Below are positions 3 to 32,100 of a stretch of 64,000 nt of DNA, piece after piece. The notes beneath the pieces were generated by a model. It was not told the origin of the DNA, searched no databases, and saw only the letters and a list, made by a program, of their open reading frames with translations. Position numbers and translations under genes: made by a program. Position 1 is the stretch's first letter. Every line of letters starts with the position of its first letter. The DNA is from Ascidia mentula. Its lineage: Eukaryota > Chordata > Ascidiacea > Phlebobranchia > Ascidiidae. The DNA lies in the NCBI GenBank assembly GCA_947561715.1, contig OX387197.1, positions 23,028,266-23,092,265 on the forward strand, in the 5' to 3' direction.

Positions 3-763
3 TCTTTTGCCACTGATTTAGCTGAGAAAGATTTTTTTTTGATGATGGATCTGGACATCACATGAGCCATTTCCGTATCATCAGTGTAGTGTAACATCCA
101 TGGTTTGTCTTAAATTAAATTTAAAATGTATTTTTATGTTTATGATATATATATAGGCTATACCAGACTGGAAAAAATGTCGTGCGCGGAGGATTTATTC
201 TCCACTTTTGCGAAAATTCGCCGATAATCCACGCAATATTAATTAGCTAATGCATTAACATACAAAAACCGTTGTGATCATCCGCACAATTAACGATCGC
301 CGAAACGAAATCCTCCGCGCAAAAAACAAACTTTCCAATCTGGAGGCTATATATGTTTAATATTGGTATTGTCACATGTATTGACAGACACTGTTTTCCT
401 TTCAAAACAACCAAGCAGATGCTAAATGTGCTTTTGATACCAGAAAATCTTTAAGGTGATATAACAACATGGTCTATGTGTACTTTTAGCACCATGCCTA
501 ATATGAACTTGAAGCTATGCACGAATAATAAGTAACATGCTATAAAAGTAAACCAGACCCATTAGATGTACACACGAACACGTTATTTACTTGACTTCAA
601 TACACTTACTTTGACTTGGTGTAAATGACTTTACTTGTTTGTCTAATTGATCCAGTTGGTTAAAACTGACTGGTGCCCACATAACCTCAAATGGTGCACC
701 CATACAGTCACCAACCAATCCACCCAAAAAAGCACCCCGGAATCTTGATAAACTAAGTTCCAT
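3..763 (-). CDS. ADPRS: ARH3-type ADP-ribosylhydrolase, 5' exons of a paralogue cut by the window edge
   Basis: Two exons on the minus strand match the start of ARH3, which removes ADP-ribose from serine and degrades poly(ADP-ribose). Exon 1 (763 to 610) starts MELSLSRFRGAFLG and holds the ARH N-terminal GDCMGAPFE segment. It ends at a GTAAGT donor in phase 1. Exon 2 (108 to 3) continues KPWMLHYTDDTEMA, containing the TDDT metal-binding motif of the family. Its donor falls at bases 1-2, so the rest lies outside. Both exons are nearly identical to the complete copy at 37723-40242, so this is a recent duplicate. Its exon 1-2 intron carries a MITE that the other copy lacks. Both exons are open; whether the whole gene works cannot be judged here. 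Confidence 0.85.
163..343. mobile_element. MITE, hAT-like, in ARH3-copy intron 1
   Basis: A 181-bp element with imperfect terminal inverted repeats: CCAGACTGG at the left and CCAATCTGG at the right end. A second matched block, TGCGCGGAGGATTT, lies further in on both arms. It is flanked by a perfect 8-bp direct repeat AGGCTATA (155-162 and 344-351). Eight-base target duplications are typical of hAT transposons. No transposase is inside. The paralogous intron near 39820 has only an AT microsatellite here. Confidence 0.7.
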
Positions 764-5174: not shown

Positions 5175-8100
5175 ATGCTGGAGGGTTGTCAAACAACTCT
5201 AGGGCGACACAATGCGGCGATTTGGTGCCGTGTTGTCTTTTGTTTACTTTTGTTTGGGAGTTTGGTTCACGGACAAGACGGTGAGTTACTATCTTTTCTT
5301 TCGATAAACGACCGTTCTATGCAAGATCTAGCGCTAACGAATCGCAAATCATAATTTTGTCAAGGTGAAGTGTTAATTTCATTGCTATTCAACTAATTTT
5401 CAAGAATATTTTCGCAGTCGCGTCTGAAACAGATGTGATCGTGCAGAGGCTCACATCCGCAGATTTGACAAGACACATTCCATATTTTCACCGCTACCTC
5501 TACGACGACCCGTCCACCCCCATGTATAGAATTCAGAGTGGGGGGAATGTCATGTACTACGGTGGCAACGAGGTTAGGTGATTTATATTTTTACGAACAT
5601 CTTTGAAACGCAGATAATGTTCTATTTTACAACAAAACATACATGGATGTTTGCATGCAACAAATTTTATTAATGCAAGGCGATAAAAGCAGGCATAAAA
5701 CTGCCCGTTAGACGAAGCGTGTTGAAACAATTTTGCACTTTACCTTCCATTGATTTTTTACTCGACATCGCTTGTTTTTGCGCAGGTGCATTATTCAGCA
5801 GAAGGGGGAACTAGTCTGGTCGCATATAACCAAACATACAGGTAAATAAAAAAAATAACTAACGTAAGGTAGTATTTAAAAAGAATAACAGAACTGAAAA
5901 GTTGTATCTTTTGATAGTGGAACAAACTACACATTCACCACGCTCGCTGTGCATCCTTTTCATGCCTTCTTCTACATAAATTCGTCTGATGAAGCATCAT
6001 TTGCTATTCAGGTAACTCTACCATTATAATTTTAACATATATAGTTGGTCCAAAAAGAAAAAACCCACACTTTTTGACTACGACTCTCGTGTTATTTACG
6101 CAACCATAGGTAAGGTCATACCTTGCAACATACGGCGAAGTAACTTCAGACAGCTTTTCTGGCTCGGTATCAAGCGAAGATTACGTGTTGACGTTCGAAG
6201 GAAATCAAGTCCACGATGTATTTTCAGCAAGTGTGTGCGAAGTCTACTTTTACATTGCGAAGGTACGGATATACACACAACCTTTGCGTAAATACTACTT
6301 TAATACATTCCTTTGTAGGTGGTGCCTAAACTACCGCCATTTTGCTTAAAATGCTTTCAGTACATGTTTTTGCGCACGATTATTCCAACGCCAACGTAAC
6401 AAACATTTTTAAATTTTCCAAATTAATAATGACAAAACTGCAAGCTCATCGAATAAATTTGGTAATACTTTTACCTTCAGAAAAACAACGACTTGTCGTT
6501 CAAGTTTTCTGCACCGTCGCAATCGTACTGGAACCGACAAACTGGAGCTTCTCTCAGCGGAACACCCAATGACGTCATCTTCGGATTTGTTCTTCTTTCC
6601 GCGTAAGTCATTTTTTTAATTAATTTTCTCCTGCAATAGTGTCGAGAACCTCGTGTCTGCCAAAATTTGTTTCAGTCACGACTGCTCTTCGCGCATAAAC
6701 GAACGCACTTTATTTTTCGTAAACCACGCAACATTCAAAGGCACAAAAAGAAAAAAAAGGACACGCTAACACCGCTTGTGAAATCACGTGATGGGGCACA
6801 TAGGGAGGCGCTGCAGTTACAACAAGTTGTTGTATGGTGCCGGAAAATACACGCATTGTTGTTAATCATTAGCAAATCCGCTGTTTTCATGTATGGACCA
6901 AGAAAGAGCCGTTTGCCCAACGTTTTGGAGAAAGGGTTGGACAATGGCAAAGTACAGTAATTTATGCCAGAAGAGCAGTCGTGTTAAACATGTGGTATGC
7001 CTGGCAGCAAAAGTAGCAAAAAATTTATTTTGAAAGTGGGTGCCCGTAGACAAACACCTTGATCAAATTACTTTTTATTTTGGTTTGTACACAAGGTTTT
7101 AAATTAGCATGAATGCAGCTAGCAACGTCCATTTCAATGATGAAAGCCTCAGTATTGCTTGTTTGTTGTGGTCATTTTTGTATGTACTGTTTTCGCAGCA
7201 TGGTTATTTGCACTCCCTTTGTAGATGTTTTCGAAGTTTTCGAATCACATACATGAACTTTTAACTTTCTTTGTTGTTTTTTTTGAAGTTTTGATCCAGG
7301 AAGTCAAATCACACAATCTCAGTTGGAAGCAACCATGCTCGACATGCTGACTACTGTTACTACAGGCAGTGGTACAACTTTTGTCTTAGGCTACCCTGTT
7401 TTTCTGGCTTTACTTCAAAATTGTTTTTATTTATCATGGTTTTTCACAGACTCTAACAAGTGTTGTGTTTCTCACAAATATTAAATAGCGATTGTCTCGT
7501 GGTTTACATTAAAAAGTTTTAGACATTTTAACAATCATTATATTCATTTGTCTGTAGGCACTGTCACCACTACGACACGACCTGTAACGACGGATGAAGG
7601 AAGTGAGTACTTCGAAGACTGTTTACGAAGTGGAATAAATATCGTGAAACCGTTATCGTATTTCATTTGCAGTTACGAGGGAAACACAATTAATTTTGGA
7701 TCGTCTAAAATCGTGGGATGTAACCTGTCACTTATCTGATTTCCAATATTACTTATACGATGACGTCACACCCCCTATCAACAAAATACATACCGGACAT
7801 TACGTAAGATATTGGAAAGCTTATGCTGGAAAATTTGTACAAGTAACTATATTTTTTTGATAGATATCATTCTTAAACGACAACGAGGATATAGTTTTTG
7901 CCGACTACAACCAAACATACAAGTAATCGTAAATTCCCAGCGAGTGACTTTGAGTACAATCGCCCCATTTTGTCTCCGCAGTCGATCGGGATATTCCTTT
8001 TCAACGCTTGCAGTCCATCCGTTCAGTGCATTTTTCTACATTAACTCCACGGACCAAAAAGAAAGGAGTTACACTATAAAAGTAACATGAGTTTTTAATT

Positions 8101-11100
8101 TTTTACCCTATAACTTACTTACTTGTTACGGAAAGGTTTCGATTTTTGTGAAAAAAAACATACAAAAAAAACACCCATTTGGTTTGGAAACTCGATTTCT
8201 TTTTGCAGGTCTTTTCAAGCCAGCTTTGGGGGTTATCTTGGCGGTCACGGTCATCGACATTTTCTGGATCGGTTTCAAGCGGAGATCACGTGTTGACTTT
8301 TCAAGGAATCCAATTGTTCGAAGGTTTCACACCGAGTGTGTGCGAAATCTTTTACTTCGTAGCAAAGGTAAACAACCGCTCCATCGCCTGTTTTCAAAAA
8401 TAATCTTGCTTCGGTAACAGCAACAGCAGATTTAAAGGGGGGGGGGATATTTTTGCTATTAGTTCTGCAGTTTTGCACGTTACTGCCCATGATGTCATTT
8501 GTAAGGCACTTATCTTTCCTTCTTTCTTATATTATTTTTATTCGCACCAAATTATATGGTCACGAATATCATCACACAAAAAATGAAAAAACGACAACAA
8601 AATGGACCGAAATGTTTCATAAAAATAGATAATCCTAGATCTGTCAAAAAATGGTTTTGTATTTGAAACAGTAGTATTTTACAAAACGATATGTTTTACT
8701 GTCCTCTTTCTACAGGAGGAAAGCGGTCTAGAGTTTGCTGTTAATGCAGTTCCAAACTATTGGACCAGAAACAATGAAGCCTTTCTTTATGGAAACGCAA
8801 AAGATGCCATATTGGGTTACACGCTTTTGTCCACGTAAGGTTTCTCGAAAATTTCAAATCAGTAAAGGAAAAAAATAGTAATGTTTAGATTTTAAACTGA
8901 AATATTTGCTTTTAGTTGTTTATAACCATGTTATAATCATGTTTGAATTTTAGCCGGGAACCAGGTGGAGAAATCACGCAAAAAGAACTTGAAGAAATAA
9001 TGCTGGGTATGCTCAATGTCATCACTACTGGAAAAGGTAGACAATTTTGTCCTACTACAAGTTTTGTACATAAAGTATAATATAATTTTATGTTGTAGAC
9101 ACCGCCAATTGTAACGGAGAACTGCAGCAGAATGTGACTGGTAAACATTTAATGAGGAAATTTATTAACAAATTTTCTAAAGAGTTCTGCCATTGCTATA
9201 CGAATTTTTTATATTTATAGCTTTGCCGGAAGTAGATGTTATTCTGCAGCGACTTAGCTCATCCGATTTGACACATGACATTTCGGATTTTTATTTCTAT
9301 GATTATCACTACAACGATTCAACTTCAATGTACAGAATCGAAAATGGCGGTGATAACATGTACGAAGCAGGAAACTACGTATGGGATATTTTCTTTAGTT
9401 TTGTCCTATTTTTGTGACGCACAATCTTTGTGACTCAGATATATTACATTGTCAACGAAAAGCGAGTCCAAGCTGAGTACAATAAAACATACAAGTAAGT
9501 GACCGAAACACGAACTTTTGACGCAAACTTGTCAAATTACTTTGTAGCTGATCCATTTTGTTATGTATTTGATATTTATATCGCCTACTTATCGTTGCAG
9601 TGGTTCTCACTATTCGTTTATAACGTCCGCACGTCACCCATTCACCGCCCTTTACTACATTAACTCAACTGATGAATCGCAAGAAACTTTTGAAATTGAG
9701 GTAATGAATAATCTTGTTATGAAAATCATTCACCATTATTGATTAATCCCACTGTAGTTTGTTCTTTCTTTACTTTAACTGGGTCAACATACTGCAAAGA
9801 TACGTGAAATGCATACGTACCTCATCGACTAACATGTTTCAAAAAGTAAAAATTATCAAGGTGATTTCGCGAATTGGAAACGTTGAGCAAAACTGGAACG
9901 GAATCATAGAGAGTAGACTTTCTGGGAACGTATCGGACGACGAGTATGAATTGAATTTCCAAGGAATTCAAATATCTGAAGGATTTGCACCAAGCGTGGT
10001 TGAAGTTTTTTTTTACATTGCAAAAGTAAGTACGATCACACAGTCTCACACATCGTGTCCATTATGGTTTTTGTTTACTATGTTTTTATTAGTCTACAAG
10101 CGGACTGGATTTTACTTTCGTGGATGGTCGGTTATGGGATTGGCAGGATAGGCGACATAGAGCAACACTTACAGGAAATCCTAAAAACGTTTATTTTGGT
10201 TACATACTCCTTTCCACGTAAGTGCACTTTACACGATATATGGGTACAGATGGACGAATTTTCCTTTTCTGATGGCGTATGTTTTGTAGAATATTACCTG
10301 GCCGAGAAATTACTCAGGCTCAGTTGGAGGCCACAATGTCAAATATGCTGAGCGTTTTAACAACAGGCGTTGGTAAGCGAGAGGACAATATTGTTACTGT
10401 GAGTACTCGAATATTAGTTGATAAGACAAACAACTTTTTTGCGTAGGAACAACTTCAAGCAGTGCGCCACAACAAGATCCTGATGGTAACACCTTTATGT
10501 TTTTATTGATATATTCCTTGTTGGATTGATTAATGTTCGTTTTTGTGACTTTTGTGCACCTTGTTGTAATTTAGGCATTTTTTGAATTGTCAGCAACTAA
10601 TGTTATTTTGTATCAGTCACTGAGAAAACTGCGGCGATTTTGATGCGTCTGCAATCTTCCAGTTTATTGAGACACATTTGTGATTTCCATAACTATACAT
10701 ATGATGACGTCACACCGCCGATCAACAGTATTATCAGCGGAGGAGATGACATGTTTAACCGAGGAAATATAGTAAGATTTAACATTGGAACAAACGTTCG
10801 AAGTTTTCAATGTTTTGCAATGTTTCCTAGATATATTTTGAAGCGGACGAGGAAACTAAACTTGTCGAATATGATCGCACTTACAAGTAAGTGTTTTGTA
10901 CGACAGTAAATGCCAACTAACCATGCATTACTCGATTGCGAATCGTTTTGGCTTGTTATGTTCTAGCCACCTAGTGTATATGATTTTCTGAGCAACTGCC
11001 CCTTTCTTTGCTTTCAGCGGTTCAGATTACACATTTACAGCCCTCACCATTCATCCGTTCATTGCAATGTTCTACATTAATTCCACAAATCAGACGGAGA

Positions 11101-14100
11101 AGACATTTGCCATCCAGGTTTAGTTTAAGATTTAAACATTCTGTGTTTACCTGCAATGAATAATGTATTTCCACTATGTTTTAAAATGTCTGCACACTCT
11201 GTCTACATAACAATCCTATGTATCTTAAGGTGTGGTCACGATTTTTTAACGGGAGGCAAAGAAGGACCCAAAGTGGTTCTGTATCAAACGACGACTACGT
11301 TCTGACCTTCGACGTTGTCCAAATGTTTGAGGAATTTCAGCCTAGTGTAGTTGAAGTCTTTTTCGTCATTACTGAGGTAATTGGAAACCAATGACAAGTT
11401 TTTTTAGCGCAATGTATGGTTAACTATCAAAGCGTAACGACTAACAACTCAATAGAATGCAACCTAACAAAGCGCATACTTTACTAATATTTTCCGTGAA
11501 AAGTTAACCCAACAAACTCTCTGAAAGCATGGAAGCTAAGTGTATTAAAGTAGTTTGGTTTTTGGATTCGTGTGGCGAAATCGTTTAAACAAATATTTTT
11601 TTTATATACTATTATCCGTCAGAAAGCTAACCAGTACAAAAAATTTTTGTTTACTCACACATTTGTAGAAAAATCAAACCGAAACCATGTTGGTGGTTGA
11701 TGACTGGAATCGAAACAATCAAATTCGAGCAACACTCACAGGCATTCCTCGAAACATCGTATTTGCATACATGCTGCTTTCAACGTAAGTCTTTTAACAT
11801 TTGCTTAAATACGTGCTGATTTGCGGTGATCAGCGCCAATTATTTGACGCAAAATATCAATTTTTATGAGATGAATTTTAAATTCGTTGTGGAAAATATA
11901 GTACTTAAGCTGGAATCCAACCTAATGTATTTTAGTAAAAGCCCAGGAGAGGAAATCATGTTATCACAACTGGAAGCAACCATGTTAGACGTATTGGTGA
12001 CGATTACGGGAGGCAATGGTTAGTGTATATTGTGCATTTTTTCTGGAACCCAAATCGAATTGGTATCCATGTCGTATGCCTCAACCTCCAATAGCATCAG
12101 GAGAAAATTTATGTTTTTCCAAAGCTATATTTGTTTAGTTTTTGATTTAATCATCAATGTTTTTTTTTAGTTTCACTTGCTGAATCAGAAGAACCAATCG
12201 ATCAATCGGGTAAGTCATTGTAATGACCTTGAGCATCCACGCAGTTCCAAAGCATAAATCAAAATTTCACAAAATACTTATGCCTCCGTGACTGTTGCTG
12301 TTGTAACAAACGTGTCATGCTGCAGTTGCCCAAGAAGCAGAGTTGCTGAAACAACGCCTTGAACCCGGAAACTTCACCCGACACCTTCACGACTATCACC
12401 AATACACGTATGATGATAACGACAGTTCATCAATGAACCACATTAATAATGGAGGAGAAAACACGCTGCGAGAGGGAAATTATGTGAGTTGTTTCACTTT
12501 CACATCTGCTTTGATCTCGTTGGTTTGATGTCTCCTTAATTTTCAGGTGTTCTTTATCGTCGATGAAAAAAGGATCCTCGCTACATACAACGAAACATAC
12601 CTGTAAGTTAAGATTACACGAAACTGTTGCGATATCGCAATGTATTTAGTGCATATTCGTCTTTGGGGGCAACCACATGGTCTTTTTTACAAACATGTAA
12701 CTTTGTTCCCTGGTTTAATTTTTGTCAGAGAAAATGTGATTGCACCGATGCAGATTAAACGAAGCTAGGAACTAAATATAAAACTTGTTTTGTTTTACAG
12801 TGGGTCGAATTATTCGTTTATAACGCTTGCTGGTCATCCATTTCTTGCCTTTTTCCACATTAACTCAACCCAGCAGACAACAAGAAGCTATTCAATCGAG
12901 GTGATGTATTTTGTTATAGTCATTGTAGAAAACCACAAGAGACCCGAATTATTCCTATTGATCAGGTTGTTTCAAGATTGTCATCGAGCAGTTCGTCCAT
13001 GAAACATGGTTTAGTTTCATATGGAGATTATACTTTAACGTTTGAAGCATATCAAGAATTTTCCGGGTTTAGCGCCAGTTATTGTGAAGTATTCTTTCAT
13101 GTTACAAAGGTAAGTGGTGTTTTTCAAAACGTTTTCAAAAACTTTGGACCATAACAGGTCCACTTGGTTTAAAGTGATATTTAAATCTTTACCTGTGGCC
13201 CAGTTCATTTCAATGCTTCACTTTGTTCTTTAGAACCAAAGTGGAATTCAAGTGTCCTTTTCCATACCTTGGACCAGTTGGGAAAGACGAAGCAAAGTTA
13301 CTCTTAATGGGTTTGCTTCAGCCGACATTCTGGGTTACGTGCTGCTATCTACGTATGAAACTCGATGTTAACAAATTACTGATACTTTATAATTTACTCT
13401 TATCAATTGATTTTTGACCTTATAACTCAGTTCATTGTTTGGTTTCTTACAACTGTAACATGCGAACACGTTTTGAAATCAATGTCATCGCAAGATGATG
13501 CGAAAAAAATCTTTAACATATGGTTACACACCAAATTTTATTTGTTTCAGTAAAACACCCGGCCGTGAAATCACTTTGCCTCAACTTGAAGCAATAATGC
13601 TTGATATGCTGTCAACCATGATTAGCGGCCAAGGTTGTAGCCTATTGGGCGTATCTCAGTGTTTTTGAAATTAACCTTCCTTGGTTTTGTTACAGGGACG
13701 GATTCAGTCGAAGAAACAACTGATCCAGAAGGTTAGTGCAGCTTTAATAAACTAGATGTAGCACAATGTTTGCGAAGTAGGGCTGGAGGACATGATAAAC
13801 CCATTTGTTGGTCACCCATCAAAATCATGACATTTAATTACAATTATTTATGTGACTGGTAATAAAACTCATTATAAATGTTAGTGGAAAGCTTTTGACT
13901 CGGGTGTAAATATTTTATTAGAATAAAGTGGAATCTGAAAGCCTGGGTAAAAATGTTTGATATCTACAGGTTTCGCAGATAATCAAAACAGTTTTTGCTC
14001 CACAGTTGCCCAGCAAACAGCACTTATTTCACAACGATTGGAATCTTGGGATATATCTGGACTATTTCCTGATTTTAACCGCTATCGTTATGACGACGTC

Positions 14101-17100
14101 ACTCATCTTAACAACTTTATGGTGAATGGAGGGTCCGGAGGAACGATTAATGGATTTGACCAAGCAAACTACGTAAGTCGGTTATTCAATTCTGCTTAAA
14201 CAACTATGGCGTCAATATAAAAGCGAAAGACTTGATAAGTCTAAAAAAGTGATCGATTTAAAACATTTTTCTAGAGTGAATATGCAAACTTCTCATATGA
14301 AGCTTTTTTATATGTGTTAGATTATCTTTGACGTGAACGGACACAGTGGTTTGGCAGAGTACAACAAAACATACAGGTAAGTACAAGTGCATGAGAATTG
14401 GTTTTATAATCGTGGTAACAAGTATTCATGCATTTTAGTGGTCCCCACAGCACGTTTACGACGCTGGCAGTTCATCCATTCCACGCGTTCCTCTACGTCA
14501 ACTCAACAAATCAAACCGAAAGTAGCTACAGCATTGAGGTTATTTTGTCTGATTAAGATTTTAATACTACGTTCTAAAATAACATGTTCGATTCCGTATT
14601 ACATTCATAAATTGAGTTTCTTAATAAGTCCATGTCTATATCTTAATAAGTCCATGTCTATGTGAGTCAATGCATTCAAACTGGATTAAAGTCACTCACA
14701 ACCTGCTTTGGCATGCAAAAAGTGGATGACTTCTGCTTACGTCATTGTTTTGTTTTCCTTTTTGCGTTACACATTTTGTGACATTATGTTATTGTTTCAT
14801 TCATTACATGGTTATACTTCTATATTTATAGGTTTTGTCAAGGTACATTTCTGTGTACCACCAAAATGAACTGAGTGGTGTTGTTTCAATCGGTGATTAT
14901 ATGTTATCCTATCAGGCAAGACAATCTTACGGGGGATTTCAATCAAGTTTTATTCAAGTATTTTACTACATTTCTAAGGTAAGCAGATTGCAATCTTGAA
15001 AATAAATTTTAAAAAATACCTAAAACATGCTCAATTCACTTAGCGTCACGCGGAGTGGAAATGCTTCTGAACAAAATACATATAATGTAACACAGAAAAA
15101 ATAATTACACCCAACTATTGTTCTTTAATTGTAGTTTAGGAATGTTTGTGTGTATGCAAATGTGACATATTTTTCTTTTCAAAGAAAGTTTTTTCTGTGT
15201 CTTAGAACGAAATTGATTTTGAAGCTAATTACCCATGGTACAATTGGCCAAGGCAAAACAAACAGACTCTTACTGGAAAGGCCCAAGATGTCATTCTTGG
15301 TTATACTTTACTATCAGCGTAAGTGGAAACTCAGTTTCGTCACCTTTAGTTTTTTTTGAATGGCACCTCCCGACTGGCAAAATATACAAAAGGCAGTGAT
15401 TGACAGTGAAACTAAATCTGAACCCACATATGATGCGACGTTCCGCGTGGTTTTGAAGGTTTTCAATAACAATAAACATGACCTGAAACACCTTTAATAA
15501 TACTCTCAGTCATAAACAGACGCCATTGCGTTATTTTTATAGGCAGGACCCAGGGCGTAACATCAGTCACGAACAACTCGATAGGATAATGGAGGATTTG
15601 TTGTCTATCGTGACTACAGGCAACAGTAAGACAAAGATGTGTTGATACTGTGTTTTTTAGTGAAATTCGTTTTGTTAACATCATATGCCCTAAACGGTGT
15701 TTATTTTTATTATTGTGAGAGAAAGAGTGTGTTTTTTCAACATTTCGAAATTAAAGTAGTTTGTACACTACCTGGGAAACGGAATATTAAAAGTTAACGA
15801 AAAAAGGTTTGATTTTTTTTTAACTTGGTAAATAGAAGTCGGATGTATTTCAGGTTCTCGCCAAAATGAGGAACAGTACAATCAAGAACGTAAGTAACAC
15901 CTCATCGGTTTTGTATTCTTCGAAAATTTGACTCTAATTTCACCCAGCAAAATAACTTTTTGTACTACTGTAATTGTCATTGAACCTTTCGCGTGTTTCC
16001 AGTTGCAGAAAAAAACGGGATTATTGCAGAGCGGCTTGAATCCTCTGATTTAACAAGATGGTTGCCAGATTTTTATGAATATTTTTACGATGACGTCACC
16101 CAACCTATAAACCACATTGTGAGCGGCGGAGAAAACATGTTTACCGACGGAAACTACGTAGGAACTGATTTTTATTTTATGAAAATTATACTGGTTTGAT
16201 TTTATTTTATTTTTATTTTCTAGATACTTTTTGGTGCAAATGAAGAAACGATTTTAGCGGAATACAACAAAAGTTACAGGTAAATTTAACAGGGCAACTG
16301 TATTTTAAAAGGGCACAATCATCCCTGACCGGTTTAGCTCAGTCAAATTGCCGTCCCGGAAGCATCGCTGATGGCTTGTATGAGTCCTTTGCCTCGCACT
16401 ATTACGCGTATTAAGATGATTGATGAATGGCATTTAGGAAATTCCAGCTAAATTTGCCAAACTTTTGATGTGTTTTATGAAGCAGTTACCCACTTTTTTT
16501 ATTTGATAGTGGCGCACATCACTCTTTCTAATAACCACGCCAAAAAAACACACTTTAGAAGACACAAACGTAAACACTAGAGGCGTAAAGGAGCTGACGA
16601 TAAAATGCGTGTACCATTTTGTTCCCTAGTGTTTCTTTTGATGGTAGCAATATTGTCTTGAACTTTCAGCGCTTCAGATTACTCGTTTACAACGATGGCT
16701 GGTCACCCTTTTATTGCAATAATGAACATCAACTCATCAGCTCAAACGAATAGCAGTTACTCTATCCAGGTAATTCAAAACTCTTTAAAAATGTCTTCGA
16801 AACTTTTTGTCTTATTCCCATAAAAATCTTGTTTTTCATCAACCTAAAAACATTAGAATTACTGAAGGCAATTTCTAACGATCCTGTAATATATCCTTTT
16901 TATGCAATAGATGTCGTTGTACTTCGGTGTTAAATGCCCACTGTACATGCCCAGGATATCCTGGGTTCAAATCCCGGTGTGGTCAAAAAAAAAATAAAAA
17001 AATAAAAAAAAATGCTAATTGTTTCTCACTTCGTGTGTCTTCAAGGTTTGGACTGAACAAATATCTTCATATGAAAGGAATGAATTTACAGGATCTGTGA

Positions 17101-20100
17101 CCAGTAACGGTTACGTTTTGTCGTTTCACGGAGTTCAGTTTTTCTATGGATATACCCCAAGTGTTTGTGAAGTCTATTTCTACGTAACAAAGGTAATTGA
17201 ACCATAAACACTACATGTTTGTCAATGCAGAAAAAACATAAAATTTACCCTATAACCTAAAAAACAAATATTTTTTCTTAAAATCCACAGACTACATTTA
17301 AAAATAAACAAATTGTCTGATTCGACCATTTTATTTTTAGGCCCAACTTCAACTTGACATATCACTTTCTTTGATATCCTATGGTACCTGGCACAGACAA
17401 AGTGGAATTGCCTTAAACCAAAATGCCCATGATGTTATCCTTGGATACACACTTCTTTCAACGTAAATACAAATACATCAGCCTTTCTTGTTTCCATACA
17501 TCAACGTAATTTCGTGTTCCCAACCACTTTTCTGCTACATTTCAGACAGAAAATAGGGCGTCAGATCACAACATCCCAAATGGAGAAAACGATGCTTGAT
17601 TTACTGACGACTATAGTTGTTGGGAATGGTGAGTGGCTTTTATCGTTCTTGATAAATTTTGTTTTACCGCATCACAATTTAGAATCTGGGGTAGACCTTT
17701 TTCTTGCAAGAGAAAAAAAAGTGTATGTGTTTTCCAGACGTATTTGAATGAAATATTTTTTCTTGGTGGTTTTTTAATTTTCTCATTTTCTGTTCAAATA
17801 TTACACGAAATAACTAAATCATGCAATGTTTGTGCAGTGACTGCATTAGATCAACCGGACCCAACTCGTAAGTAAATCATTCACACATTCAGTTGTAAAC
17901 GCTCAACAAACATTCACCAATATTTCTCCACTTTCATGTTGGTAATGATGTCTAGTGGAAAGAAAAGCGGAAATTCTTTCAAGAAGCCTTCAGGCTTTGG
18001 ACTTAACGAAGCACATCGAAAGATTTTACAATTATCAATATGATGACGTAACCCCTCCCATTACCAACCTCATGACTGGTGGAAGATCAATGTATCATGA
18101 AGGAAACTTTGTAAGACTGCTTCCTCCCAATTTGTAACCAAATTAGTAATAGATGTGATTCTTAGGTGTATTTGTGCGCCGACGACGATAAGTTTTTGGT
18201 AGAGTACAACAAAACGTACAGGTATGTTGGTCTGTGCTTTGGTCAGTAATTGTTTAGGAATCAACTTTCTAAACATTCTATAGTGCGGCAAACCACGTGT
18301 TCACCACATTCGCTGGCCATCCATTTACTGCACTTTTGTACATCAACAACTCAACCGATCAAATCGAAAAAAGCTTCTGTATTGAAGTAAGTCAGAAATC
18401 GTCAATCTTTGCTTCGCATTCTTTTGCTGCTCTTCATGTTTTGACGGTTTTTAATGAAGGTGTTTTCGAATGTCCAAAGTCAATATTACTGGTATGGTAA
18501 TGGCGAACAATTCTCCCTTCCTTTCAACGGATCTGTGTCAAACGACGATCACCTTATGCATTATCAGGGAATTCAGTATATTGGTCGATTTGATGCCAGT
18601 GTATGCGAAGTTTACTATTATATTTCGAAGGTAATCTACGTAGTTTTACTGGTCGGTTGTTTAGACTGTGTCTAATCCTGAATCGTAAATGAATACTTCA
18701 AATACTTTTGTTTGTTTTCAGAGCTCAGCTAACATTGATTTCACCTTTACGTATCCTCCATACTATTATGGACGAGAAGGAAACAAAGCTGTTGTCAGTG
18801 GCGATCTTCGCAATGTTATTATGGGTTATACACTATTTTCAACGTAAGTCATAAACCTTGGATTTGATTGTAAACCGTCACAATACGTTGCGAAATTTTT
18901 ATCCATAAACTGTGTGCTTGTTGGCAGCCGTAGGTGTTTTATATAAAGTGAATAGCAGATTCTATCATTGTTCTCACATTCACGTTTGTAAACAATTCCA
19001 CAGCAAAGAATTTAATGCCAAAATATTTCTACAGTAAATTATGCATGAGCATTTGTTACTTATTACTACAATTGTAAAATATCTAAAATAACTGTTGTTG
19101 TTCCGTTTTACATTTTCACGACGTTATCGCTTTTCTCCCTTAAAGATTTCTTCCACGCGAAATACCGAACGATGAATTGGAGGCAGCCATGCTTGAATTA
19201 TTGGAAGTGCTTACCTGTGAAGGTATAAAATATTCCGTGATTTTGCAGAAACCGATAATGCCTTAGTGGGAAAAACGAATTTTTCATTGTTTACAATAAA
19301 CTAGATGACTCCAATCCGAAGCACCTTGTTTCTGACTATTTAATTCTTCGAAATTTATGTAAATGACCTTAAAGTTTTCAATGAAATTACCACTGAAAAT
19401 GTGAACATAAGTTTTTGTAATAATTACAATTTGAATTTCATTCACAGCGCCATGTTTTGTTTTTATTTTTAGATTGCGATCCAAAAGAAGAGACAACTTC
19501 AGGTTTGAAAAGCAACTTATTTTAATCTAAAAATAAATAGTTTTTTAACAGCGTTTCATGCCCTACAAATGTTACGATTGTAGGCTGAAATTAGTACAAA
19601 ACTCATGTAACAAGCTTTAACGTTTTGCAGTGGATGGCTACCCAGGCACAAACGTGATCCTATTGGCTATAATCAAAAAGAATGAAACCACGGCAACGCG
19701 CACCTATTTCATTCAAGTCACTGGCGGAACGGAAACAAAATCCCTCACGGCTTTTGACGTCGAAACATTCTTGATCACTGATCTAACGCCGGAAGTAACG
19801 TACACGGTTGTGGTGTCTGTTCTTAACGACGGCCTGCTTGACACCGCCTTAACTCTAACTGTTGCCACCAGTAAGTACCAGGTGGCTGGTTTAATCTACG
19901 TAACTGGTCGGGGTAAACCACTTGCAAAATTGTATGTAAAGGATTCAATTGACCGCAGAAAAACAACATTCAAAAGCTTGTTGATAATACCAAATTTCTT
20001 TCTCTTTTTCACTTTCCAGGTTTATCTGTGCAGTGTGTCTGTGCAATGCAATGGCATTCACAAATCAGTTCTAAATAATAGAGTGTGATTTTCAGTGAAA

Positions 20101-23100
20101 ACATAAATCATAAACATTCACCCGTAGAATGTGTATGTAATTTTAACCTTCTCACACCGTTCCAGCGAAAACCTGCACCTTGTCCTGTACAAACGCCAAC
20201 TGCATCGCGTTCAACTCCACAAGGACAGAGTGTGTTTGCAAGGTTGGATACGAAAAACACCCGAATCAGACCAACGTATGTTTGGATATCGACGAATGCC
20301 AACTATCATCTTGTCCTGAAGATTCAACTTGTTCCAACAGTGATGGCTCATTTGCATGTCGTTGTCCCACTGGTCTCCAGCTATTCGATGGCCAATGTGT
20401 GGGTGAGTATTGTTATAATTAACCACATATATGTTTCGTTTTGAATAAGACAGAAACTGAAGATGATGCCATCAGGCGAAATTAATATTTCTTAAATAAA
20501 GATCTTATGCTGGTGTGATCGCCGGTTACTCCTTTCGGAGCCCTAGGAATTAACCACATATATGTTACGAATTCGAACACTCACATATTGCATGTAATAA
20601 TGAAAAAAAACATTTACTTATATGTTGAAATTAACAAACCGATCTGTAGAAAGCTCAGATGGTCGATATTTTTTAGAAAAATATATTTCGCCTAAAAAAG
20701 GCATCATCAGTTTCTCCAACTTCTTTGAATAAAACTGGATTGATACGTTGCGCGATCGACAGGGGCCGTCAAATTGATCCATTTTTTTCATTCTGTAATC
20801 AGACTATAAATTTTCTCATTGGATTTTTTTTTTGTATGTTACAGAAGCCAATATTTGCAACCAGGAACCTTGTGAAAACGGGGGAACTTGCACGACGGGT
20901 AACAGTAGTTACTCCTGTAGCTGTCCCGAACATTTCTTCGGTCCACGGTGCGAGTACTACACAAGCCCATGTCTGAACGTACCTTGCCAAAACGAAGGAA
21001 CCTGTGTTGATTTATCCGGAAGTTTCAGATGCGACTGCATTTCAAACTACACAGGTTATTTATTACTGAATTCAAAATAAATTTATAGCAAACTATATTT
21101 TCTTGACTGTGGAGAACTTCGCAGTTGCTTCGATAATGTTTACAAATGAGAAATCTTTCAAAAGACGGTTTCTTGAGGTTTTTTGAGGTTCCTTTTTCCT
21201 TAATTCCAACAAAAACATATTTTGACCACGTTCTAAGCAAATTTGGAGTACTTACTTTCCTACGCCAAAACTAATCTTTGAACGATATGCTTATGTGTGT
21301 TTTAACTCAATGTTACAAACAGGGTCGGTATGTGACGTAGATGTGGACGAGTGCCACCAGGGTACGTTTAAATGCGATCCCAATTCTCAATGTCAGAACA
21401 CAATTGGTGATTATAAGTGCAATTGCAACGATGGATACAGGTATGTTCTACCAATTCCGTTTGTTGCGGAGTAGTAGTTTTATGAAAGTCACACCATAAT
21501 TAATTTTAGCGCCACAGAAATATAAAGAGTTCTGTGTCATCAGTTTCTCGGTTCTATCATCAAAATTATCTAGTTACTGATTAGCTAATCCATTTTACAG
21601 AGGTGACGGAAGAGATAAATGCTACTTCATAAGATTATTTGCTTATGGAGAAAGTGTGAACGACGAAGTTTTGACGATTTCAGACGACGTTGCTTCTCCC
21701 GTACTCAAGTATATTCATCACATTAAATTATTTTACCTCAAATGCAACAATTCTGATCATTACTGTTCAAAAAGTATGAATTGTAATAATTTCAAGATGG
21801 TCAACACCAACGAGAAAGAACTGGGTTGTTATCCCTGTTCTGTTCAATATAACGCACTTAAGGGCCCAGGTATTAAGCCACTTTTTGTACCACATCGCAT
21901 ACAACCATACGAAGTACTACCACCATATGTCGCAACAACGTAGTGTGTAATGTCGCGAGTCTTTGCTGTGGATTCGGTTCAAACTTTGTGATCCACTGGT
22001 TGAATTAATCGTTTCAGGGCGTCGTTTGATATTCCCTTTGGAACTAAGACCTTCAGCAACATGCGCGTGACATCGAACGGTCTTATAACACTTGGACTTG
22101 GCTCCTGGTTCGTTCAGTATCTCAGCCGTCCCTGGTACAACGGATTCAGCTTCTTTGACATCGGGATGATTGCGCCGTTCTGGGACAACTTTCATCCGAG
22201 TACAAATAACAATGGACGCGTTTATTATCAGGTACTGACATCATTATTACCTGTGATGCTTTCTCGTGTCGCAGCTTTCTAAGTCTAAGTGCCCAGTTTG
22301 TTTATCCGTTCAGTATTATTTTGCATGTTGTCTGTTCAAATCGTCTTGTTATGCTTTGTTGTTGTTTGGTTTTCTTTTGCTGTTTATGTTGTATTTTCTG
22401 TCGTTGTTGTTGCTTAACAACTGACCTTCTGGCCTGCTATGCATTGAGGCTTCATCAGGTTTATTTGTGCCAAGTTCAATTTCTTGGACGTCATTCAGGT
22501 CACGGTCATTTGCTTTAAACGTTGTCTTTTGTTTGAAGGTCTATAACAAAGGAGAGGCCACCTTGACGGAACAAAGTGAAGCTGTGGTCGGAGAAATTGC
22601 AACGAGAATCAACAATCGGTTCGATCGCCAAGATTTCAATCCACTGTTCGTGCTGAAAGCTACCTGGAATAAAGTTGTCATGCACGACGAGTTCTATCAT
22701 CGAGACTATGTAATATGAATAAAAGTTTGCATTGGCAGACGTACTCATGGCAAATGTTTCACAAGTACATCCTTATTGGCTTCACTGTCAAGAACACCAC
22801 ATTTCCAACTTGGTAACCTAAATATAAAAGCCATGTAAAATCAAGTGATATACCAACACTTCTAAACCGAAAATGTCGATAAGACTTTTTATAATTTATG
22901 TGCAAGCGAATACTAACATTGAAAATCAGAATTTCACGAGTTCCTGATTTTATCAAAGTTATGTACGCAGCCAAGTACGTTTCAAGCCATCATAGCAAGC
23001 GACGGTGCCGACACCTACCTTATCTACAACTACAAGGAGGATGCGATGATGTGGGACACGCGCAGAAGATATCCGTGGGGAAACCGAGCTCTGATTGGAT

Positions 23101-26100
23101 ACAGTTTTGTTTTGGGTCAAAGTTTTGTTGAAGTTCAGGGAGATTATAGACCCGACCATAGAAATCAAACCGGAGGTGAAACTTTTTAAGTTTAGTTCGT
23201 ATATTTTACGCGAAATGAGACAAGTTTCAGGGTAAGTAATCCGTGCAAGTCTAAAGAAAGTGGAAAAAGTGCTAAAACATTTCATCCTCTTCATGGCGGA
23301 TTTAATAAGACATTTTGCGTCCTGTCATTTAAATTAATACTAAAATCGGTTCGAACACAATAGCGTACCATTTTACTTAGCAATATTTTTTATATACGTT
23401 TTTTTTCAGATGATTATACGTTTTATTGTTTTGCAGGCGGCCCGACCGGTCAATACTTTTACCACGTGGCGAAAAGAATCACGAACATACAACGGGCAGT
23501 AGCCACTCTCGAATGCGTCTCGTGGTATGTGAGAGAGTCAAGCAACCCTTGGGCACCCGATTATGAACCATGTCCTTGCACAAGTTTGCAAGCTAGAAGA
23601 GATCCAAGCTTCACGTGGTCAGTGGACGTGCGGCTGTACTGGAATGCAAGAGTTAACAAGTACCATCCCGACTACTACCGAACTGCCAGTATTGAGGAGT
23701 GGGCTTACGATGAAGGTACGTACATGCTGTCAATACTGCGTGACTCTTTGCTTACAATTACCGACCAAACATGATTATTTTTACCTTCAACAACAAGGAT
23801 TAAAGATTTAATTTCACACCACTTACAGTTAGTTGAGTTTATGTTTAATCCAATTGTAAGTTGCAGGCGATAGATCACTCAATTTATTCTGTAATCTTAT
23901 CTAGATACTTTAAAATGGTGAAACTATACAGTTGATTACCAAAATACCAATCTACACAATGAAACGTGTTATAAACCACATTTTGCAGTGGGACTCTACA
24001 ACTGCTACCAACCACGAGTAAACACTGGTCCAAGATGTTGTTACTCCCCACGATCCAACACCTTCTCACCGTTCTGGGGCTGGTGGAGTCAAAGCCCTCT
24101 CATATCTGGGCCTCTGTCGAGTCGCTACGAGCGGAGTCAAATCCCTATCTTTGAAAGAACTTCGTGGTGGTCCTGGGTTTCCTTTAGAGATGAGGAACTG
24201 TTCAGCGCGCAATTCAACTCATCCATGCGTAAGATTTGGGGGATTTTTTTTATGAATGACTGTTTTGTGAGCTTGCTTTTTTCGCTTGGATTGAACTATG
24301 ATACACAAAATAAAAAGCAAAATTTTATTTTAGTTTATTTCGATAGAAAACGATCTCATTCCAAGACGTCAATGCTGTGTGGAAAGCCAAAGCCAAACTT
24401 TATGCGACTTATATAAAGCTCTGCGCCCACCGGCGAATTGTACGGGATACGTTCCACGGAGAATTTGTGAGTTTTGACGGTTAATAGTATGGTTTTATCA
24501 CAACAAGTTTTACTATTTTATTTACCCTAATTACGTTTAAAATGTATTAAATTGTTTTCAATCAGATTTTTTGAAGACAAATTGTTTTGAACACAGCAGA
24601 TGAAAAGCTTTAGTTTCTAAAAGTGGCAATTACACTTTTTGTTTCAGCGTTCTTCTGGGGAGACCCTCATATTACGACCATCGACGGCGTGACGTACAGT
24701 TTCAACGGTTTGGGGGAATACCACATGGTTTACGCACCAGGAGTTTTCTCCTTGCAAGCCCGCACCAAAAAGGCAAAGAAGGAAGACATGACGGACTCGG
24801 ACGCAACTGTGTTCGTGGCATTCGCAGCGAAGGATCTCGCATCAGCCGACTCCGGCACAGTAAACTGCATTTTGAATTCTTATACCTCATAGCCAACGAC
24901 CTGTTTATGCAACCGTTAAAACAGTTTCCTTACAAACGGATTCGAAAACAAATGTTGTTTTTTCTTAAAAACAAAACATTCTGAAAACCATGTAAGTTAT
25001 CTTAATTGAACAGAAAAATACATGATTGGTTTATTGTGTTTAAAGCTTCAATTTGAAGTTGACTTTGACAACGAGAATGGCGACGGTGTGATTGTCAAAG
25101 TGGATGGAAGCGTTGTGAACAATATTACGGACAGTAAGTAACGAACCCCAATTTTGATGTATAAAATCCTACGTGATTGCGACGTAAGTTACATGTTAAA
25201 TGTTTCAAATTTCTACCCGTACAAAGACAGCTTTCCCAATCTATTTGTGCATAGGTAAATACCTTTAATAATGCCGTATTTTTGACAGTGTACCCAACGT
25301 ATCAAATTAAAACACAATTGTTTATTTCCGGTGGAACAAACTACTCTTGCTATACGAAATACGTTGTTATCCAAAAGGCTTGTAGGTTAGCGGGCAATGC
25401 TTTTATAAACAATATTCATGCTAAAGGGTACTGTATGCAAAAAATCCCTAACCTTTAACTCACTTGCTTTATAATGATCATTACTCGAAACTTACATATT
25501 TAATAATCGTTGTTGTGAAGGTGAAACCATTGTTAGTGAATTGAGTTTAACCCAAGAAAACGGAACGTACACAGCTGTTTTTCCATCCTCCCAATCCCTC
25601 ACCATCACAGCGAGCAACTATCTTCTTGCCATGCAGTTTACCGGCGACACAAAGTCCATGCAAAGCATCTCGAAGGGCCTTTTGGGTGAGAAAAAAGTAT
25701 TTTCTTTCAGCAAAGACAAAATACTGCACGACATGTCAATTGCAAACTTTTTTTTTTTTAAATTGTAGTTTTTTTTAAAAAAAAAAGCTTTTTCGGTTAT
25801 GTTCTGATGTCCAAGTTTAACTTTGACTCTTTAAACTTCCAAGTTTAACTTTGACTCAAGGATACTGGGACGGTGATAAACAAAACGACTTTGAGATGAG
25901 GAATGGAACGACCATGAATTGGGAATCCCTACAACCTACAGAAAACCTGGACATCTTGAATGGAACCCTGTCAGAGAGGTTACTGTATCCATTTGGATTA
26001 TCATGTGAGAAAAAAGTTCCAAACTTTTACTTTTATCAAAACGCTATTGCATTAAAAAACAATCGGGACCTTAAGCAAACTAGGAGTGTTCACACAAAAG

Positions 26101-29100
26101 TGAAAATGCTAGAGGCCCTGATCTTCCGAAAATTGTGCTTTGACAAACCTGAACATGCTTACAAACCAAAAGGTCCATTTAGGCCAAGCAAAACCAAGTT
26201 TTTTATGGGTCTACTTTTTTGACAGGGAAATTGCACAACGCAAGCGAAAGCTTTTTCAGCTACAGCAGTGATTCAATGGACACATTTGAAAATCACAATC
26301 CAGTTAATGGGGATGCGCCTCCTTTCCTTGAGGATCTCGTCATGGATCAAAGAAATTCGAGTCACTTTGCACAAGTTCTGTCAAACTGCACGACCAACGG
26401 CGTTGTTTCAACCACTTGTCTCTATGATGTTTTGACAACAAACAGAAGCGACATCGGAGAGAACACGAAGTCCGAGGCGGAAAGCACAGAACAAATATCG
26501 AGGGCAAACGGTGAGATTCGAACAGATTTCCATGCGCTCGGGTGAAAGAATTTGTCGTGTTAAATTCGCTTGAAGCATATGCTATAATAGTAGGATAAGC
26601 CTAAAGTTTTAACCCGCCCATTGTCCATCGTCAATTTCTGTAATGCAAAAGCAACATATAACAATCAAATAGAAAAGCAAAACGTTTACAAGAAATTAAA
26701 ATCTGCCACAGCTGCACATTTGCCTAAATTACTACTAATCACTGCACATTGATACGCGTAACACAAATAAGTCAACAAATTGTGTTTTCTCTAATTTGTA
26801 TTCATTGCAGCCAACTCCTTGCCCGTTCTGGCCGTATTGGCGTCCACGAACATACAGATGATGAACGGTAGATACACCCTGATGGCCCAGATTAACGAGA
26901 TTACAACTTTCGCTGTGACAGCTGATGATGCAGACGGGCACGACGTCACGTTCGCTTTGCAACCGGAGGATTCGATCCAGGGAGTTTCTATAAACATCAG
27001 TGAGTCACATAGTGGCACGCCTAGAACTTACGTTAGTGCAGAAAGTGATGATAGGAAAAGCAACAAGTGAAAGGTCATGTGATGTAATACCCAAAGGTAA
27101 ATGGTCCCTATAAGCCCCGTAAATTATTTTTCACTGCGTCGTAATAAAAACTGGCAATATCATGAAAATGATAAACTGCTCGATAAGGTCTTGGAGTTGG
27201 AGTTGCATGTTGTTTAAGTCACCAATATGATTTTATCGGTTTTCTTTCAGCCAGTGGAGTGGTTACTTGGACACCCACGACCGACCATCGGATTACGAGC
27301 ACGACAAATCGTACACTGACGGTGATAGGCACTGACAGCTTGGACGGACAAACTATCCTGCCGATCAATGTGAAACTTTGCGTTTGTCAGAACGGAGGAA
27401 CTTGTCTCTTCGGCGATCCAGTGTTGGGCAGCGAAAATTATCAGGTTTCAAAATGTTGTGTGGTGGTAGGATAATTGTCCCGTAGAGTTCTAAACACACA
27501 GAGATGTTGTGACTATTGTAGCACCGAATCCCATCTTAATATCAATTGGTTTATCATGACCCTGTGTGGAAAAGCGAAAATTATCAGGTTTCAAAATGCA
27601 TGTAGTTAGATCAGAGTTGTAGAGTTAATATCTTCATGACCATTGTGCACAAGCTCCAAAGCCGCGAGAGTACCGTATCTTGCATTGGTTAATGTTGTTA
27701 CGTCTCTTAATAAGGTCAATAGATTCATTTATTTTACGGGAAAAGGGCAATTTTTGGTAAACTAATCGGTAAAAAATTATCGGTGTAAATTTATTATCGT
27801 TGAAAGATTGTCGACTGCGAATGCACTGACGCCTGGACTGGCGCAGACTGTACAGAAGATAGAGATGGTTGCCGTTTGTCACCTTGCTTTAGTAATGTTA
27901 CATGTGAAGATGTGCCAGTTCCAGGAGCCGGAGAAGCGTGCGGGGATTGCCCTGAAGGAACAACAGGTAAATTTATTTTGGTCAGAAGATTATTGTGGTT
28001 TGTGTCAAATCCGATTTGAGGAGTTTTGTTTGTACTATAGTCGATGTATAGTGTAGTGGTGTAGTTGCTATCAATATCGAAAAGTTTATGCTAAAATGTA
28101 TTCTAAATATTGGTAAATTTGGTATCTCTCTTACAAGCTAGGACACAAGTTATAAGGAAAATATAAGGACAAAGGCTAGCAATTAACAAAACATTATTAT
28201 ATTTCGCCAATTCAGGTGATGGGAGAAATTGTACGAACATTGACATGTGCAGCTCGAATCCGTGTGAACATAATTGTGAACCACTCTACAACGCCTTCAC
28301 ATGTTCTTGTAACGAGGGATACGTTTTGGTGAACACAACACAGTGCCAAGATGTGGATGAATGCAGTTTGGGAAACCCTTGCAGCGCTGTACACCACACG
28401 TACTGCGTTAACACGCCTGGAGATTTTAAGTAAGGTTTTTTTAAAGTCTATACCGATTAAATCAATAGTTTCTGAATCATCTTTTCTTGTGGATCAACGC
28501 AAGGCAAGTAACAAAATTAGAAAAACAATTCGGAATAAGAGCAAAACTTTTACTAATGTAAACAAAATTAACATGACTAACATCAACAAAATATTTTCTT
28601 TTATATTTTAGTTGTCTTTGCAATCCCGGGTTTGACGACAGTTCAGGAAGTTGCATGAACGTAGACGAATGTTCAACAGGAACCCACAATTGTTCTCTAG
28701 CTACAACCAGCTGTCAGGACATTCCAGGATCCTTCGCTTGTCCCTGTTTGCCAAACTACGCAAGGTGGTTCATGTCATTTAATACTGATATACAAAACGG
28801 TCCAAAAATGTTGATTTAAAACAAATTGTGATTTTTGTTATATTCTATCCATAGAAAACTTTAATTTTGGAAATTCATTAAAAAACAAAACATAATGAAA
28901 TGAATCATTTTGTTGGGGAAAACCTTTGCCTGCGACCATCGAATCTTCGTGATAATTTTCAGTTATTTTTTTTAGTTAATAAAGTGTAATGCTGTAATGG
29001 AGGACAATGAAGTTTTTTATTTTCAGCCAGCATCACTGGCTAAAGTACCATAACGTACTGAAAATAAAGTACCATAACCATATAGTTAAATTCGTACAAA

Positions 29101-32100
29101 ACTCTAGGCCTTACTTTTAGGAATGCCTCGGAAAGTGACGAGACCTCCTGCGTGGATTTAGACGAATGCATTGCAAACTTGCACACTTGCGATCGACAAA
29201 CCGAAGATTGTATAAACGAGAGCCCTTTGTTCAAATGCATTTGCAGGTATGGGAGTAAATGCATCTCAGCATCCAACCTTAGCACAAATACGGATTGCAA
29301 TCAGTTTTAAATGTCCATCGGTATACCTCAGGTCTGGTTTCGAAACGGTTAATGGAACTTGCCTGGATATCAAGGAATGTTCCAATCCGACTTTGAATAC
29401 ATGCAACGGCAACGGATCACTCTGTGTCGAAGAGGAAGGGAGTTTCCACTGCGAATGCTTGGCTGGTTACAACATGAGTGAAGACGGGGTAAGTGTTGAT
29501 TTTCGTTTTAATTAACGCCATACGAATTTCTCATCAAATTTGTATTTTTTTAATCCTGTCACCCTTTCAAATTCATATCTCTATTCAGAATCATATGACA
29601 CGAATCTGCTAAATTTTACAACACAAACACCTCTAGAATGTCCCGAAGCAATTTACATTTAAACGTATTAAAAAATTATTCATGTATATTGGAGAATTGT
29701 TAATGTAACAAATGAAAGTATTGATCGAAACAAATTAGGGTGTTTCTTATATTTTATAACCACTTAATTGTCAAAAAAAAGTTAATGTAGGTTACAAACA
29801 CAACACAAAAAATACAAAATAAAATTTATTAATGAGAGCTGCAGACAGGGTGTATTGATTATTATAGCTCTTTTGCGCATATAAAATTTATTAAATTTTG
29901 TGAAAATTAATCAATATTTAAAGAAAATAAACTTAACGTTTATCTAGACTTGCAACGACGTCGACGAGTGCGCGGATGCTAACATCTGCTCAACAGGAAT
30001 GATTTGTTCTAATTTCCATGGAGGTTATGGATGTTTGTGCTCTGCCGGTTTCTCAATAAATGCAGCGGGGGTAAGCAAAATTATGTTAGAAATATACGTA
30101 GAAATTGTGCATACAGTTTGAGAATTAATATACCATTTGTGTTTACTTAGACGTGTTCCGACAACGACGAATGTACGGATCAAAGTATTTGTCCTCAAGG
30201 CTCGTCGTGCTTTAATCTTGATGGCGGATACGAATGCAGATGCCAAGTTGGTGTCGAATGCACCAGTGAGTTAAAAAGTCACAAACCAATTCAATCTTTC
30301 TGTAAAATAGGCTTGTGCGATAATTACTTTGAACTAGTCTCAAATTGAAATACCAACACTTACGTTACCGATAATTTAAATCTAAGTACGTTTAAATTAC
30401 CATTGAACATTTCCCAAGCATTTTCAGTTCTAAACCTAGAAACATCCATAAAGAATAGAGTAAATTGACCCTTACATTTTTGTGCAGTTAACCCGCAGTT
30501 GGACCAGGCAACTTTGTTACAAGTTACAACTGATTCGATCACAGTGACTGTGGACGCACTTGACTTATACGATCAATACGAGGTGACTATGTTACATTTG
30601 TCTGGTGCAAAAGATGTTTTGCTTTCTGAAACAAAATTAATGTAGTCTACCAACTTAATACCACTAATAATTGTAGTAAAAAAGTGACTTCTTATCAAAA
30701 AGGTTTCATGTTATTATTGTTCAATTAAATCTTTAATTTTTGTTTAATTGTGTCGTTTGTCGACCACAACTCATTGATTGGTATTTCAACATCTTTGTAT
30801 TATAAGTCAACAGTTTACTTTATCGAATATTTTTATGGTTAGTTGCAAGCTGTGGATTCCGATGGAACGGTGACCACCAATACGTCAACTGGAACATTTG
30901 CTTCAATCACTGGCCTGAAGCCAAATACAAACTACACGATACGCGCGAGAGTTCTAAAACTGAAAACTTCCGACCACATTTATGAGGAATCGAATTTCAG
31001 CGAACCTCTAATCGTCACCACCAGTAAGCTAAACTTCGCGCCTGCAGTTATTGAAAACCTGAAAATTAGTTCATTTGATGGTTCAAAAAACTTGTCTGTG
31101 GGCGTTGTGGTTTTATTTACGTTTCAGATTACAAACCTAATATTGGTGATTACAACAAAGACAATTGCTGTTCATTTTGACTTTGACGACACAGGTCACA
31201 ATACCTGCAATACAAAACACTAAAAATGCGCATGAAGTTTTTTGATCAACAAAATCATCAAAAATCACATACAAATGTGTCACCCAATTACAGAACAGGT
31301 GGACATATAGTAATTATTGCACTGTTAATTTCAGATGCAATTGATTTGGCGTTGGTTGTGACGTTGGTCGGTGAAGTTTACAGTCAAGATCTAACTGACA
31401 TCTCCTCTACTCAATCTCAATCATTGCGCAACGTTTACGAAAACGCGTTGAGGGAGCAACTCAAGTCGGTTGTGGGTGGCGTAACACTACGATTCAAAGC
31501 AATTACTTTCATTGCCTTCAGGTGGGACTTAAACTTAAAACACTCAATGCAAAAGAAGTAGAAACGTGCGGTGCAAAACTATCGATATATCGTTGTGTTT
31601 TCGGTAATATAAAAATCATACGTGACTGAGAAATGTTTGCACATTGCTTTTTGGTAATATTATTCGTTGTAACGCCATGTAGAAGCGGAAGTGTGGTCGC
31701 ATCAGCTGTTGGAGCTCTGGACACCAATGATCCAAGTCACCGAACAGCCGTTGCTGACGGAACCGACCTTGATGCGGCAACATTCCGAGACTTTTCACCC
31801 AGTAAGGATATACTAAAAACTTCACAACTTGAAGAACAACTTTACATTTTGAAATATGTTCATAGTTAGAACCATTCCTTCGTCTCCATCAAACTTGCAA
31901 GTTACCGACGCTACAACCAGGTCACTGACGTTCGGATTCGAACAAGTTTCTAATTCGATTAGCTATGAAGTCAAACGTAAGTTTAAACGCCTACTCTAAA
32001 ACATACAACCCCCATCTGCGTGTTGCGAATTACAAATAGCGCATCAGATTCCTAAATTTCCTGGTTTAGTAACTTTTCCTGGTTTAGTAACCTCAGCCTA

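Follow-up and report, generated by a model that had tools for sequence, protein, structure and literature searches.

In the 64,000-nucleotide stretch of the Ascidia mentula genome analyzed here (contig OX387197.1, positions 23,028,266 to 23,092,265; hereafter, the window), a forward-strand gene running from 5175 to a stop codon at 34908-34910 is predicted to encode a MUC4-like type I membrane glycoprotein, in which an array of eight tandem modules, or units, takes the position of mucin repeats. The predicted domain order is a signal peptide, the units, EGF domains, a NIDO domain, an AMOP-like region, a VWD domain with a GDPH motif, a C8-3_MUC4 domain, EGF and fn3 domains and one transmembrane segment (Table 1). 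The explanation we favor, at a little under even confidence, is that the units of this membrane glycoprotein most likely represent a diverged NIDO-type domain and that the chain they form serves in multivalent adhesion or spacing. The module belongs to a multigene family of arrays, not to one odd gene.

The region 5418-19502 comprises eight tandem homologous units of seven exons each, recovered by a purpose-written spliced-alignment script that was used alongside an exon model trained on the splice sites and codons of the family itself. Counted from the signal-peptide exon to the end of unit 8, the model yields 57 exons, excluding one spurious 96-nt exon at 16312, in an intron of unit 7, which was removed by hand; all 56 introns are bounded by GT-AG, and the phase string 1-0-2-0-0-2-1 recurs eight times across the array. 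Exon 2 measures 56 nt in seven of the eight units (59 nt in unit 2) and exon 6 measures 83 nt in seven (77 nt in unit 8), with pairwise protein identities among the window units of 34-47%. An initial annotation of this DNA had described eight tandem units of about 235 residues and seven exons, with near-fixed exon lengths, an invariant HPF and identical intron phases defining a phase 1-1 cassette, and each of these features was recovered, HPF being kept in all eight. Among 28 family units, the P of this motif is present in 28, the F in 27 and the H in fewer than 90%. No read-through frame encoding a unit occurs in the 19 chains checked, where the unit exists as spliced exons only. The array totals 1,886 residues, of which 13 are Cys and 19% Ser+Thr, and has 37 sequons for N-glycosylation; the units read by eye as beta-rich, and are Cys-poor and extracellular in character. 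Three boundaries are ambiguous: the end of the first exon of unit 2 (a 60-nt intron at 7804 or a 27-nt intron at 7837) and the starts of unit 6 (13970 or 14006) and unit 7 (16003 or 16009). Within 7804-7863, the intron would be 27 nt long if all aligned residues were coding, and the copy of the gene described below presents the identical choice.

A consensus search of the organism's own genome (196 Mb, 79 contigs) gave 169 exon matches, the best of which were listed. All of the matches listed sit on contig C1, and the 54 first-exon matches among them form seven arrays, of 3, 6, 10, 11, 9, 8 and 7; every one of the seven is followed by a NIDO match downstream on the same strand. In the array of 9, two first-exon rows overlap and may belong to a single unit; a spliced scan adds unit exons to the array of 7 (at 23106581), so that the total remains near 54. 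One further NIDO, at 19816906, is preceded by no unit among the matches listed. The listing also includes three matches to later exons at 19.757-19.761 Mb on the minus strand, with no NIDO near them and no unit in the 10 kb stretch below (L054, to 19.750 Mb). A minus-strand NIDO gene at 20.0077 Mb is likewise accompanied by no minus-strand unit in the stretch to 20.02 Mb. Six exons with the same phases recur in 25 of 30 unit chains (in two of these, exons of unit 4 are chained to exons of unit 5), and the five partial chains agree. In a tree of 26 units, those of the window are not set apart with support from those of the other cluster. Many copies of the module of about 235 residues would form the outer half of each member of what appears to be a family of mucin-like proteins at the cell surface. 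The genome also holds two matches to the GH6 family, regarded as a tunicate hallmark among animals, which lend modest support to a tunicate origin.

A second copy of a block of about 34 kb (window 1.6-36.1 kb) lies about 69 kb downstream; identity between the two is 87-97% in aligned pieces of at least 400 bases and 95% in the first coding exon. Across the 1,885 unit codons compared between the copies, stops are absent, synonymous differences number 72 and non-synonymous ones 68, and the ratio of non-synonymous to synonymous substitution rates (dN/dS) is 0.254. No gaps occur where the unit exons align, and 50 of the 98 introns of the gene differ in length, eight of the 50 by a multiple of three. 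The unit reading frame is under purifying selection, and the ratio, the gap-free exons and the length-varying introns together support the predicted frames and exon joins. The NIDO domain shows zero non-synonymous differences; dN/dS is 0.10 for the AMOP-like region, 0.17 for VWD, and 0.69 for the FN3-EGF stretch before NIDO, where the copy has a single stop, following an exon end that is probably misplaced. Units 4 and 5 (10617-13731 versus C1:23107962-23111077) are far more diverged than their neighbors, with synonymous divergence (dS) of 0.16 and 0.14 as against 0.01-0.05, and look as if they had undergone conversion or recombination. Such a pattern, in several tandem genes with 3-11 units, could be reconciled with arrays acting as recognition receptors in allorecognition or immunity, their units varying between individuals, whichever origin of the unit applies. 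We consider this role improbable: per-unit point estimates of dN/dS, most of them from few differences, lie at 0.13-0.38 and below 1 in all eight units, and a signal of positive selection was not found.

Searches for a known family were largely silent. No tested unit matched Pfam, NCBIfam, PHROGs or PDB sequences at threshold, viral contigs and phages held no close relative of the unit, and literature searches found no description of the module. The initial annotation had described the unit as an unrecognized module and had proposed a profile search as a check; the description stands insofar as curated families and solved structures returned nothing at threshold and bacterial genomes only the marginal matches given below, and it does not extend to unrelatedness to everything, NIDO ancestry being possible. 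The unit might instead belong to another known extracellular beta-sandwich family beyond the reach of sequence profiles, a relationship that sequence-only searches miss by design and that would suit its beta-rich, Cys-poor, extracellular character. This is hardly the likeliest solution, however, as a profile of the eight units found no PDB sequence match (best E 0.21) and the sub-threshold unit matches scatter across unrelated families.

The resemblance between the unit and the NIDO domain of the same gene was first noticed by eye, with statistical testing afterwards. The two share an order of motifs, namely YDD (NDD in NIDO), VYFSANG (VYVNNNG), IHPF (IAPF) and SYSIE (VYYQ), the last followed in each case by V across a phase-0 intron. 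The position of this intron agrees to within 1-2 residues between the units and all eight Muc4-like NIDO domains read; two other genes with NIDO that were read (L001 and L004) lack it. For broader comparison, a prokaryotic NIDO set of at least 117 stretches (121 windows) was collected by a DNA pattern for APFWADVD, a motif that is invariant in the set by construction, the loci having been chosen by it. A hidden Markov model (HMM) of the unit ranks bacterial NIDO windows over other windows of the same loci with an area under the curve (AUC) of 0.875, and places 12 NIDO windows in its top 20, NIDO accounting for 121 of the 1,964 windows overall; it also scores NIDO above reversed (AUC 0.64) and shuffled (AUC 0.69) NIDO. 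Among the best 115 alignments, APFW was placed on a model position in 20, and in 19 of these it fell on HPF. Out of 600 shuffles of each kind, 5-18 (column), 11-46 (block-12) and 8-25 (block-20) reached the score observed in local profile alignment, depending on gap costs, and four of five NIDO families outscored the best of ten unrelated families built in the same way. In the favorable profile tests, about 1-12% of shuffles attain the score.

Several results weigh against NIDO ancestry. The Pfam NIDO model found none of the eight window units, their consensus or nine further units at E up to 10, and of the APFW-A-D-V-D core the units retain only PF, with Trp and Asp lost. Comparison by hhalign gave E of 0.033-0.77 across settings and NIDO sets, with probabilities of at most 1.5%, and its score was reached in 8 of 150 shuffles by column and in 22 of 150 by block. 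Against half-swapped NIDO, a control that preserves local patterns, the unit HMM reached a non-significant AUC of 0.54, and the HMM p-values are overstated because the NIDO windows are related to each other. APFW is left unplaced in 95 of the 115 best alignments, and several high-scoring ones, as well as some from hhalign, adopt another register. When the domain was split, the score for Muc4-like NIDO was reached by 168-216 of 400 shuffles for the N half and 48-102 for the C half, that for bacterial NIDO by 12-22 (N half) and 214-336 (C half), and that for nidogen-type NIDO by 109-320 (C half); the fifth NIDO family scored under two unrelated families. The unit profile, searched against 30 NIDO-bearing bacterial genomes, produced three marginal matches only (best E 0.23). 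One lies in a domain (L174, about 240-700, minus strand) that is NIDO-like by eye (FAFDFYG, YGYLTFG, IAPIW, FTFQVVL) and has no Pfam or NCBIfam match; its alignment sets the GNYVYF..AEYN hairpin of the unit onto a pair of strands that follows the APFW-like site (post-selection pairwise E 0.019), a register in conflict with that of HPF on APFW. The other two matches are not NIDO-like.

These results, taken with the absence of threshold matches in the collections searched and of close viral or phage relatives, lend weight to a different account, in which the unit represents a separate domain family, unrelated to NIDO and having its own fold or a traceless origin, that arose or was captured in the lineage and multiplied in Muc4-like genes. 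We regard this as a genuine if lesser possibility; against it stand the colinear NIDO motifs, the intron shared near HPF/APFW and the seven arrays whose first-exon rows all lie upstream of NIDO. Somewhat less probable still, and on balance unlikely, is a fuller version in which an extracellular family with its own fold, at about 54 genome copies, replaced the mucin repeats in a MUC4-like gene family, giving a rod of folded repeats bearing N-glycans where there had been a disordered glycopolymer.

On present evidence, descent from NIDO is likelier than any single rival, the data suggesting for the unit a beta domain of NIDO type that has diverged strongly and can be aligned only tentatively. 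Such a domain would have multiplied through in-frame duplication of a phase 1-1 exon block, and the resulting chain may be N-glycosylated, with the EGF/fn3 stalk holding it away from the epithelial surface. VWD domains are reported to self-cleave at GDPH, and MUC4 to be cut at this site (PMC10880436). Self-clipping at the GDPH in VWD would leave an outer part (units, NIDO and AMOP-like region) joined non-covalently to a membrane part, and the repeated units could then act as multivalent binders or as spacers of mucus, tunic matrix or neighboring cells. From the architecture we infer cleavage, a surface location and an adhesive or barrier role; a glycoprotein that is clipped, anchored in the membrane and extended by many folded repeats would fit multivalent adhesion or a structured surface coat. 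If this is correct, a MUC4-type surface protein has had its mucin part exchanged for an array of folded domains, which multiplied by whole-cassette duplication within a multigene family. Should the units derive from NIDO, a parent domain and its far-diverged descendants coexist in one gene, a good case for the origin of unrecognizable domains; should they not, they constitute an uncharted domain family.

Table 1. Predicted features of the MUC4-like gene, in window positions.
Feature	Position	Strand	Basis and remarks
First coding exon	5175..5280	+	ATG and hydrophobic signal peptide, ends in phase 1; sequence reading, exon model
Unit 1	5418..7602	+	7 exons including Thr-rich linker exon 7558-7602; aligner and exon model
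Unit 2	7673..9140	+	7 exons, first ending at 7803 or 7836; aligner and exon model
Unit 3	9221..10485	+	7 exons; aligner and exon model
Unit 4	10617..12209	+	7 exons; aligner and exon model
Unit 5	12326..13731	+	7 exons; aligner and exon model
Unit 6	13970..15889	+	7 exons; aligner and exon model
Unit 7	16003..17867	+	7 exons; aligner and exon model
Unit 8	17956..19502	+	7 exons; aligner and exon model
FN3-like exon after the array	19631..19870	+	By eye only, no Pfam match; GTAAGT donor directly 3'
EGF and calcium-binding EGF domains	20166..21700	+	Pfam EGF_CA 2.8e-16
Canonical NIDO	22018..23175	+	Pfam PF06119 6e-24; exons 22018-22231, 22539-22709, 22971-23175
AMOP-like Cys-rich region	23437..24466	+	AMOP E 0.0074, below curated cut-off
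VWD domain (approximate ends)	24648..26004	+	Pfam PF00094 1.3e-7
GDPH motif of VWD, putative Asp-Pro autocleavage site	24659..24670	+	Found in both gene copies
Mucin-4-like C8-3 domain	26226..26510	+	Pfam PF23263 2.1e-6
EGF_CA, three fn3, possible SEA-like stretch, further EGF	26811..34616	+	Pfam EGF_CA 1.4e-58 in 9 stretches, fn3 2.3e-16 in 3 stretches; SEA-like E 0.035, below cut-off
Last exon	34783..34910	+	Transmembrane segment, short cytoplasmic tail, stop 34908-34910; sequence reading

Beyond this gene, the window contains C-type lectin-like exons at 45580-45624 (E 0.0017, below cut-off) and at about 51.8-56.2 kb (one stretch at E 6.6e-6), the latter beside a transmembrane segment at 56192-56236; the region 51.8-55.1 kb is partly duplicated about 14 kb downstream, at C1:23.094-23.097 Mb. 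Also present are a tRNA-Thr (ggt) gene at 47786-47861 and two copies of a Ulp1-type C48 peptidase fragment, at 48200-48235 and 60355-60417 (E 1.9e-5 for the scanned stretch), perhaps derived from a transposon.

Compared with known systems, the unit resembles NIDO (PF06119) in the motif order YDD / x-NG / HPF, the register of HPF on APFW, one phase-0 intron and possibly a PG followed by a helix at its C end, and differs from it in the remainder of its intron set. A bacterial NIDO domain (L127:5559-6203) was modeled as mostly beta, with a predicted local distance difference test score (pLDDT) of 92.5, and a Foldseek search with this model returned no solved structure at E of 0.001 or below. The bacterial NIDO profile, compared with PDB by sequence profile alone, matched the RemA gliding adhesin (8gl6) as the sole chain below E 0.01 (E 3.5e-10), a chain not found with the units. 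As to the gene as a whole, the initial annotation had proposed a fusion of the units to a MUC4-like NIDO-AMOP-VWD protein; NIDO and VWD are well supported, and AMOP is matched only below its cut-off (16.9 bits versus 25), in a match spanning positions 4-143 of 143. The domain order given for MUC4 in PMC5354666 is NIDO-AMOP-vWD-EGF-TM (transmembrane). With MUC4 the window gene shares the order NIDO, an AMOP-like region, VWD with GDPH, C8-3_MUC4, EGF domains, a single transmembrane segment and a short tail. It differs in its sub-threshold AMOP region, in having many more EGF and fn3 domains and, above all, N-terminal of NIDO, where its 19% Ser+Thr array does not constitute a Ser/Thr-rich mucin repeat region and eight folded-looking units stand in place of the Ser/Thr-rich mucin repeats of MUC4.

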